Assembly: GCA_027531255.1 (NCBI GenBank)
Contig: JAPZRU010000005.1
Coordinates: 62,001 to 126,000 of the forward strand
Length of the DNA: 64,000 bases
DNA from: Steroidobacteraceae bacterium
Lineage (GTDB): Bacteria; Pseudomonadota; Gammaproteobacteria; Steroidobacterales; Steroidobacteraceae
Direction of reading: 5' to 3'
In this document: positions 3,809 through 6,672 of the stretch, one piece after another
How the letters are laid out: every line of letters starts with the position of its first letter
How positions within the stretch are numbered: the stretch's first letter is position 1
Translations under genes and position numbers: made by a program
The notes under the pieces: model-generated
The model's database searches: none
Told to the model about the DNA's origin: nothing
Seen by the model: only the letters and a program-made list of their open reading frames with translations

Positions 3809-5473
3809 TCAGCTGCTGCAGGACAGCGCGGAGCAGCCCGCGCGATGTCGCACCCATTCGGGGCGGCGCGCCGCGTACTCCTCGGCGTCGGGCTGCTCGT
3901 CGTAGGGACGCTCGAGGACGCTCAGCAGGCGCTCGAGCACGCTCACGTCGCCCGCGGTCGCCGCATCGATCGCCAGCTGCGCCAGATAGTTGCGCGGCAC
4001 GTACTTCGGGTTCACCGCGTTCATCTCCCGCACGCGCTCCGCGTCGGGACGCCCCTCCGCACGGACGCGCGCGGCCCAGCGCACGAGCCACGTGCCGAGC
4101 GCCTCGCGGTGCGCGCCCGTCGGCGCCCCGTCGTCGTAGTACGCCGCGCGCAACGGCGCCGGAATCTCGCCACCCGCCGTCACCGAACCCGGCTCGACCG
4201 CGGCGAGATTGCGGTGGAACAGGGTGAGGTCGGTCTCGACCCGCTGCAGGACCTGGAAGAGGCCCGCGATCAGTTCGTCGTCGCCCTCGCGGTCGAGCGT
4301 GCGCAACCCGAGCTTGGCCGCGAGCATCCCGCGATAAGTTCGCTGGTAGCTGTCCGCGTAGACCTCGAGCGCCGCTTCGAGGCGTTCGCGATCGCCCACC
4401 AGCGGCTCGAGCGAGCCGGCGAGCCGCGCGAGGTTCCACATGCCGATCTGCGGCTGGTTCCCGTAGCTGTAGCGACGCCCCTGTGCGTCCGTCGTGTTCG
4501 GCGTCCACGTCGGGTCGAAGCCCTCGAGCCAGCCGTAGGGCCCGTAGTCGATCGTGAGCCCCAGGATCGACATGTTGTCCGTGTTCATGACGCCGTGCAC
4601 GAACCCGACGCGCATCCAGTGCGCGATCGTGACCGCGGTGCGCCGGCAGATCTCGGTGAACCAGTCGGCGTAGACGGCCGGCCCGGGCGCGCCGAGTTCC
4701 GGGTAGTGGTGGCGGATCACCCAGTCCGCGAGCCGCCGCAGCAAGTCGTGCTCGCGCGCCCACGCGTGCACCTCGAAGTTGCCGAAACGCACGAACGTGG
4801 GCGCGACGCGGCAGACGATCGCGCCCGGCTCGGCCTGCGGATTGCCGTCGTAGAACATGTCGCGGACCACCGGATCCCCGGTCGCGACCAGCGACAGCGC
4901 GCGCGTGGTGGGCACCCCGAGCGCGTGCATCGCCTCGCTGCACAGGTATTCGCGCAGGCTCGAACGCAGCACGGCGCGGCCGTCGGCGAAGCGGGAATAC
5001 GGCGTGCGGCCCGCGCCCTTGAGCTGCAGCTCCCAGCGCCGGAGCGTCCCATCGGGCTGCTCGAGCACCCGCTCGCCCAGCGTGATCGCGCGACCATCGC
5101 CGAGCTGCCCCGCCCAGTTGCCGAACTGGTGGCCGCCGTAGCGCGCCGAGTAGGGCTGCGTGCCCGGCAGCACCCGGTTTCCGGCGAGTACCTCGACGGC
5201 GGGCCCGGCCGGGTGCTCCGGCCGGAGGATCCGAAGCTCCGCGCCGAGCGCGTCGGACCACGCGAGCAGCCGTGGCTGCGCGACGGGGGTCGGCAGCACG
5301 CGCGAGTAGCTCGCGCCGGGCACCTGCCGAGGCTGGTTGTCGACGGCCTCGCGCGGATCGCCGGGCAGCTCGCTCGTGAAGGTCGCCTCGAGCGCGAGCG
5401 TCTCGAGCGGCACGGCCGGCGGCCGCCCGGGCCGCACGACTCGCGGCGGAGCCAGGATCTCGGGGTTCTGCAA
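3809..5473 (-). CDS. selO: Protein adenylyltransferase SelO (YdiU family)
   Basis: 554-aa pseudokinase-fold protein of the SelO/YdiU family, which transfers AMP to Ser/Thr/Tyr of target proteins and is linked to oxidative stress. Family stretches include LPGDPREAVDNQPRQVPGA near the N-terminus, YSARYGGHQFGNWAGQLGDG, ELQLKGAGRTPYSRFADGRA and GVMNTDNMSILGLTIDYGP (the Asn/Asp metal site). The C-terminus CSALSCSS keeps the conserved Cys tail, here plain cysteine rather than selenocysteine. Length is normal. The start is TTG with GGAG 8 bases upstream; no ATG fits. Confidence 0.95.
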   Translation of the reverse strand: MQNPEILAPPRVVRPGRPPAVPLETLALEATFTSELPGDPREAVDNQPRQVPGASYSRVLPTPVAQPRLLAWSDALGAELRILRPEHPAGPAVEVLAGNRVLPGTQPYSARYGGHQFGNWAGQLGDGRAITLGERVLEQPDGTLRRWELQLKGAGRTPYSRFADGRAVLRSSLREYLCSEAMHALGVPTTRALSLVATGDPVVRDMFYDGNPQAEPGAIVCRVAPTFVRFGNFEVHAWAREHDLLRRLADWVIRHHYPELGAPGPAVYADWFTEICRRTAVTIAHWMRVGFVHGVMNTDNMSILGLTIDYGPYGWLEGFDPTWTPNTTDAQGRRYSYGNQPQIGMWNLARLAGSLEPLVGDRERLEAALEVYADSYQRTYRGMLAAKLGLRTLDREGDDELIAGLFQVLQRVETDLTLFHRNLAAVEPGSVTAGGEIPAPLRAAYYDDGAPTGAHREALGTWLVRWAARVRAEGRPDAERVREMNAVNPKYVPRNYLAQLAIDAATAGDVSVLERLLSVLERPYDEQPDAEEYAARRPEWVRHRAGCSALSCSS

Positions 5474-5604
5474 GAGGTGCTCCGGAACGGATGGGCCGCA
5501 CGATCGCGCGCTTCATTCTGGCCGCGACCGCGGTGGATTGCCACGCACCCTCGAGGGTGCCGGAGCGCGCGGCCAGGGTCAGGCTCGCACGAGAGAGGCG
5601 ACCA

Positions 5605-6150
5605 TGACGCCGATCCGGACTGGCTGGGCCACGAACGCCGCGTGCTGTTCGGTCGCTGCTGGAACTGCGCCGCGCACGCGGACGCGCTCCACCTGAAACC
5701 GGTGCGCGTCGAGCGCTGGGCCAACCTCGTGTTCGCGAACCTCGATCCGGCGGCGCCGCCGCTCGTCGATCACCTCGCCTCGATGCAGGACGCGGCGAGC
5801 CGCTGCGCGCTCGAGCGCATGCACCACGTCACCACCCGCCGCTACCCGGTGAGTGCGAACTGGAAGGTCTACGTCGACAACCATCTCGAGGGCTACCACG
5901 TGCCCGCGGTGCACCCGGGCCTGCACCGGGAACTCGACTTCCGCGCCTGCGTGACGGCACTCGGCGAGCACCACTCGTGCCAGTACGCACCGATCGCGCC
6001 CGGCCGGGGCGGCCGGCGCGTGTACGACGCGCGGGCCGGCGCGGGCGAGACGCTCGTGCACTTCGACTGGTTCGCGCTGGAGCCGCCGGCCGACGACGCG
6101 GGCCGCGCACGACTCGAGCGGCCGCCCGCGTGGGCACCTGCGAGGCACGA
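5605..6150 (+). pseudogene. Remnant of a Rieske-type aromatic-ring/choline oxygenase alpha subunit
   Basis: An open frame without a start codon encodes three recognisable pieces of a Rieske oxygenase large subunit. They are an N-terminal piece (DPDWLGHERRVLFGRCWNCA), then LKPVRVERWANLVFANLDP through ANWKVYVDNHLEGYHVPAVH with the His-x4-His iron ligands, and a late piece (TLVHFDWFALEPPADD). The whole Rieske [2Fe-2S] domain (CxH and CxxH) is missing between the first and second pieces. A second in-frame gap lies after RRVYDARAG, and the C-terminus is lost. It cannot be a working oxygenase. The frame survives both deletions. Confidence 0.75.
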
Positions 6151-6153
6151 CGG

Positions 6154-6159
6154 TAGACT
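6154..6159 (+). promoter_or_regulatory. Putative -10 hexamer of gpx
   Basis: TAGACT in the context GGTAGACTCCGG, 31 bases before the glutathione peroxidase ATG. The same GTAGACTCCGG string occurs upstream of minC, which supports a shared -10 type. No convincing -35 is seen. Confidence 0.4.
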
Positions 6160-6189
6160 CCGGCCATCGCGGAACCCGAGGAGAGTGCC

Positions 6190-6672
6190 ATGCCCAACGT
6201 CCACGATTTCGAGGCCCGGACCATCGACGGTGCGACGCGCTCGCTCGCCGACTACGACGGCAAGACCCTGCTGGTCGTGAACGTGGCGAGCCGCTGCGGC
6301 TTCACGCCGCAGTACTCCGGCCTCGAGAAGCTGTGGCGCGAACTCGGCCCGCGGGGCCTCGTCGTGCTCGGCTTCCCGTGCGACCAGTTCGGCCACCAGG
6401 AGCCGGGCGACGAGGCCGAGATCGAGAAATTCTGCCGCACGAGCTACGACGTCACGTTCCCGATGTTCGCGAAGGTCGAGGTCAACGGCGCGAACGCGCA
6501 CCCGCTGTTCAGTCACCTGAAGCAGGCGGCGCCGGGGCTGCTCGGCTCGGAGTCCATCAAGTGGAACTTCACGAAGTTCCTGGTCGCGCCGGACGGCCGC
6601 GTCGTGAAGCGCTACGCCCCAAACGACGCGCCGGAGAGCCTCGTGAAGGACATCGAGAAGGTCCTGCCCTGA
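6190..6672 (+). CDS. Glutathione/thioredoxin peroxidase
   Basis: 160-aa thiol peroxidase of the glutathione peroxidase family, which reduces hydroperoxides. The peroxidatic Cys36 lies in NVASRCGFTPQ, the catalytic Gln in FPCDQFGHQEPG (about residue 70), and the Trp/Asn pair in KWNFTKFLV. Cys64 and Cys82 (EIEKFCRTSY) are present; Cys82 is at the resolving position of thioredoxin-dependent members, so thioredoxin rather than glutathione may be the reductant. GAGGAG precedes the ATG. No signal peptide, so cytoplasmic. The stop codon abuts the next gene. Confidence 0.93.
   Translation: MPNVHDFEARTIDGATRSLADYDGKTLLVVNVASRCGFTPQYSGLEKLWRELGPRGLVVLGFPCDQFGHQEPGDEAEIEKFCRTSYDVTFPMFAKVEVNGANAHPLFSHLKQAAPGLLGSESIKWNFTKFLVAPDGRVVKRYAPNDAPESLVKDIEKVLP

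Follow-up and report, generated by a model that had tools for sequence, protein, structure and literature searches.

The closest described relatives of the locus analysed here are the alpha subunits of GbcA/CntA-like Rieske oxygenases (NCBIfam NF058607; CntA, PDB 6y8j), with a Rieske domain (PF00355) and a catalytic domain (PF00848). In CntA, the Rieske cluster ligands are described as Cys86, Cys106, His88 and His109, and the iron ligands as His208, His213 and Asp323, with Glu205 as a bridging residue (PMC7948474). The CntA chain in our alignments (PDB 6y8j) is numbered 20 higher (i.e., His228, His233, and Asp343, as counted from the alignments). A leftover of a Rieske oxygenase large subunit has also been described from the dcb dioxygenase operon of Diaphorobacter JS3051, where a truncated nagG remnant (orf2) is depicted as sitting in the operon and retaining its start codon and N-terminus (PMC8406286). 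More generally, bacterial genes that are not maintained by selection are said to undergo inactivation and loss, driven by a strong bias towards deletions, and short frameshifting indels are listed among the commonest lesions of Salmonella pseudogenes (PMC2916853).

Here we describe a likewise truncated leftover of a Rieske oxygenase large subunit from a Steroidobacteraceae genome. The catalytic-domain start and the iron-ligand helix of the GbcA/CntA-like subunits align with it, but unlike these subunits it is devoid of the Rieske core, sheet strands, third iron ligand, C-terminus, start, and stop. Unlike orf2 of JS3051, it has lost internal parts, and its surroundings showed no oxygenase operon; in contrast to the Salmonella pseudogenes the dominant lesions are larger deletions. 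Within the window (the whole stretch of 64,000 nucleotides that was analysed), homology to the alpha subunit extends from ~5600 to ~6121 on the forward strand, the portion past 6088 being recognised through alignment only. A first-pass annotation made from the sequence had placed the remnant at 5605-6150, which is close but not identical to these limits. The remnant sits between the genes for SelO and a glutathione peroxidase (GPx) and consists of three collinear pieces, in original order and strand, which share the frame containing 5600. No Rfam matches were found in 5400-6300, and a simple scan of 5450-6260, which is weak evidence, returned no promoter- or terminator-like sites. The first start codon of the neighbouring SelO frame is a TTG (window position 5473).

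Table 1. Coordinates of the oxygenase remnant, its junctions, and its flanking genes in the window
Feature	Positions	Strand	Basis or remark
SelO protein adenylyltransferase, intact neighbour	3809..5473	-	Pfam 18-464 of 466
GAGAGG, Shine-Dalgarno-like sequence	5593..5598	+	5 nt before ATG 5604; read from the sequence, putative function
Piece 1, N-terminal helix and first Rieske-domain residues (DHDADPDWLGHERRVLFGRCWNCAAHADAL)	5600..5689	+	Profile scan, alignments
ATG, probable former start	5604..5606	+	Not in the frame of the homologous pieces; putative original start
Junction 1, in-frame loss of ~80 residues comprising the Rieske 2Fe-2S core with both Cys-His pairs	5687..5692	+	Border +/- a few residues
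Piece 2, catalytic-domain start including iron-ligand helix LEGYHVPAVHP	5690..6037	+	Pfam PF00848; CntA alignment
Junction 2 region, ~31 residues of sheet strands gone, in frame	6011..6056	+	Two imperfect 23-nt tandem copies
Piece 3, a strand with its downstream linker (ETLVHFDWFALEPPADDAGRARLER)	6047..6121	+	Profile scan for 6047-6088, alignment only for the rest
Stretch without detectable homology; stop codon, tail, and the C-terminal helix bearing the third iron ligand are gone	6122..6189	+	
Glutathione peroxidase, intact neighbour	6190..6672	+	Pfam 1-108 of 108

Very probably the locus is an ordinary deletion-eroded Rieske oxygenase pseudogene, which decayed in this lineage and would yield no functional protein. 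Specifically, it can be recognised as a homologue of an intact gene family, and it carries lesions that block the normal product, namely the loss of the start, the stop, and essential residues. The parent is a putative stand-alone GbcA/CntA-like (i.e., glycine-betaine/carnitine monooxygenase-like) alpha subunit. The central piece, which contains the beginning of the catalytic domain (NWKVYVDNHLEGYHVPAVHPGL), matched Pfam Ring_hydroxyl_A (PF00848) with an E-value of 1.5e-12, covering positions 1-48 of the 208 in the profile as compared with 2-205 in the intact homologue L017; a Pfam search of the remnant returned no match to PF00355. Among NCBIfam models the best match was AndAc (29.8 bits), followed by GbcA (25.2 bits), both far below cut-off. 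An intact homologue of the family (L096) had NF058607 as best match, with 153.7 bits and a cut-off of 670.

Homologues were collected from the best 80 of at least 557 relatives retrieved by one genome-contig scan (best segments 30-51% identical) and from four stretches of the family, giving 84 loci of which 78 were kept; L017 and L099 are apparently the same gene and hence counted twice among the 78. The remaining six were dropped by a length limit of 320; five of them run into a contig end, and one (L044) is interrupted. As this limit might itself remove Rieske-less forms, the six loci were inspected, and none was Rieske-less, their matches beginning inside or before the Rieske domain. The Rieske motif was present in 77 of the 78 full-length homologues, the last one (L087) being masked with N there.

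Family profiles built from these 78 homologues were used in a six-frame scan of the whole window. The N-terminal piece ranked first both at 5600-5662 (among 103,022 stop-free placements, with a score of only 6.3 bits) and at 5600-5689 (among 94,748), and fourth of 97,356 with a profile starting at the first Met of the homologues. The segment ETLVHFDWFALEPP of piece 3 (6047-6088) ranked first of 110,374 with 30.3 bits. On the other hand, no credible local match was obtained in the window for the Rieske CxH/CxxH segment (best local rank 273), for the late YYWLFPN...NVVIP segment (best local rank 476), or for the FSEEVQAEDAGICE helix and the C-terminal tail, and the missing pieces were not found elsewhere in the window by the profile scan. 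A match of PPAWAPARHDG to the YSPKRESG region of the tail, hinted at by the first alignment, was rejected by the profile test. Beyond the known pieces, the matches listed by tblastn on the window were mostly noise from untrimmed GC-rich queries. The first-pass proposal of an oxygenase remnant without its iron-sulfur domain is correct.

Gap sizes in the alignments delimit the two internal losses. Between pieces 1 and 2, intact homologues have 80-84 residues in 77 of 78 cases and 88 in one (L087 is masked there), and at the second gap 72 of the 78 have 37-38 residues versus ~6 in the remnant, which agrees with the missing late segment noted earlier. The alignment to homologues that had been suggested as a check sized both deletions and placed the border of junction 1 to within a few residues. 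Counted on the alignment, the loss at junction 1 begins ~11 residues inside the Rieske domain of L017 (25-105 in Pfam) and ends ~8 residues past it, so the deletion does not follow the domain border. At junction 2, the two tandem copies are 78% identical and share a 10-nt exact repeat GGCCGGCGCG; as background, repeats of at least 10 nt occurred in 127 of 3196 windows of 81 nt (4.0%). These copies would be compatible with slippage or recombination but prove neither. Around junction 1, no repeats of at least 7 nt were present in 5640-5730.

The claim that the iron-ligand helix was kept holds for the helix, not for the iron site. The bridging Glu and two His (equivalents of CntA E205, H208, and H213) are retained in LEGYHVPAVHP according to the CntA alignment (Glu97, His100, and His105 in P0001 numbering). 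All four Rieske ligands are absent in the profile scan, and so, locally, is the third-ligand segment LVAFSEEVQAEDAGICEIVQ, the ED of which aligns with D343 of the CntA chain (D323 of CntA). Because the C-terminal part with the third ligand is gone, what remains is two of three iron ligands and not an iron site.

The three pieces are indeed collinear and in one open frame, as first described, but they do not form a self-contained reading frame. There is no in-frame start between GTG 5477 and the internal GTG 5642, and no in-frame stop ahead of TGA 6278, which lies inside the GPx gene; the frame of ATG 5604 ends after 30 codons with a stop at 5694-5696. Without a stop, the frame of the remnant extends over 866 codons, of which ~555 run antisense to SelO, and its openness therefore means little. 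With a GC content of 71.8% in the window, 22-44% of 182-codon stretches are stop-free in each of the six frames (real genes counted in), so decay would seldom be visible as stops. The stop-free frame could easily arise by chance as a by-product of a 72% GC genome. The first-pass view that the retention of frame across both deletions exceeds what random decay usually gives is not supported: the chance that two losses both fall in frame is 1/9 by arithmetic, and that of two out of three is 2/9 when the start-side lesion is counted, with ATG 5604 taken as the start, and at least two further lesions break the gene, namely the shift of the start out of frame and the loss of the C-terminus and stop. 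Moreover, the pieces were noticeable as a single frame only because all of them were in one frame.

Among the observations that stand against the pseudogene reading are that two losses are in frame and that no frameshift or stop lies inside the pieces themselves. The GC content per codon position in the remnant resembles that of intact neighbours (GC3 of 0.933 in the central piece and 0.928 in SelO), and together with the lack of internal frameshifts and stops this points to decay that is recent or slow. Conservation was assessed in the central piece, where 28 of the 32 columns conserved at 90% or more are kept; 76 of the 78 homologues keep more and two equal this number, with 0-4 mismatches per homologue. 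The three family members in this set keep 29 of 32 each (3 mismatches), a fourth locus, L097 of genome G024, having been removed by the length limit. When every retained conserved column is counted, including the doubtful edges, the remnant differs at 9 of 47, whereas none of the 78 homologues exceeds 8 (range 0-8). Since three of these nine changes sit close to the edges of piece 1 and two in the doubtfully aligned tail, we prefer the central count of 4 in 32. As this number is equalled by two of the 78 homologues, relaxed selection on the kept central residues is not shown.

Selection for a miniaturised protein, i.e., a Rieske-less fragment whose frame is kept for, e.g., a binding or regulatory role, would account for the single frame of the pieces, the kept iron-helix residues, and the coding-like GC3, but it is very improbable for a fragment that has neither its own start nor its own stop and has lost sheet strands and the third ligand. 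Its architecture was also absent from the 77 readable full-length homologues and from the six loci dropped for length. AlphaFold2 with thin, nearly equal alignments gave a pLDDT of 49.2 and a pTM of 0.33 for the remnant versus 57.3 and 0.63 for an intact homologue. Neither model is good, and the ligand helix scored below 50 in the intact control too, so this comparison lends weak support. Translation of the short frame, starting at GTG 5642 or further upstream, into a selected Rieske-less mini-protein with a repurposed two-histidine helix is hardly credible. An import of the fragments by horizontal transfer or recombination, instead of decay in place, is equally far-fetched: the best matches reach at most ~51% identity and are spread across Gemmatimonadota, Chloroflexota, the own family, and others (best 80 of at least 557), and no common gene neighbourhood was found in the four gene-bearing family members or at the GPx of 14 relatives, but the pieces retain their original order and strand, as expected from decay in place, and none of the three neighbours tested belongs to a mobile element. 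A gene that was transferred and then decayed would have the same appearance as one decayed in place.

An assembly artefact, by which the organism would carry an intact gene whose segments were lost during assembly of a GC-rich stretch, is unlikely, even though the genome is a draft (40 contigs, 95.6% complete) and junction 2 lies within GC-rich near-repeats with a 10-nt direct repeat. The locus lies in the interior of a 198 kb contig, and the flanking SelO, GPx, and pseudouridine synthase match Pfam models nearly full length, as do seven of nine other frames in the window, the two without a Pfam hit perhaps not being real genes. For these reasons a local assembly error is not favoured. Furthermore, several separate losses in one gene would be required, and the genome search revealed no detached Rieske piece: the only other matches to the missing Rieske segment were distant paralogues, 25-40% identical. 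Seven other Rieske oxygenase-like loci (L146-L152; contigs C2, C28, C32, and C36) were detected in the own genome at E<=5e-14, with open frames of 392-499 codons; two of them are close together on C28 and three lie within 45 kb on C32.

Under the pseudogene reading, the oxygenase would have lost its function in this lineage and then been eroded mainly through deletions. A deletion near the start may have put the ATG out of frame, if ATG 5604 was the start; one of ~240 nt would have removed the Rieske core, one of ~93 nt the sheet strands, and a further deletion would have taken the stop together with the C-terminus and its third iron ligand. The number and order of these events are those we infer from the pieces left. 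The locus illustrates how a dead gene can retain an extended open frame when the genome has 72% GC, and an open frame alone does not equal selection; automatic annotation might take such a remnant for a protein or let it run into the adjacent genes.

Within the family, the gene has a patchy distribution. Only seven of 217 family genomes match at E<=1e-22, the own genome included (best other 50% identical), and two of 59 in the relatives set at 1e-20, the own genome being in both numbers. The genus is represented by a single genome, the own one. Only this genome out of 369 in a class sample matched at the strict limit of 1e-28, which is too strict to show weaker matches, and the 90 plasmid records were all less than 60% identical. 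No close intact relative giving the ancestral DNA was found across the genus, family, relatives, class sample, contig scan, and plasmids. Neither SelO, GPx, nor three other tested window genes occurred within the 4.5-8.4 kb fetched around the gene in four family members. GPx matches were found in 34 relatives, and in the 14 stretches fetched neither SelO nor an oxygenase occurred within 6.0-8.5 kb. In a Chloroflexi metagenome genome (L044:3662-7434), an oxygenase homologue is split by ~2.7 kb, with a transposase-like frame, which we take to be IS1595/ISXO2-like, near the start of the insert. This homologue is apparently another member caught being inactivated.
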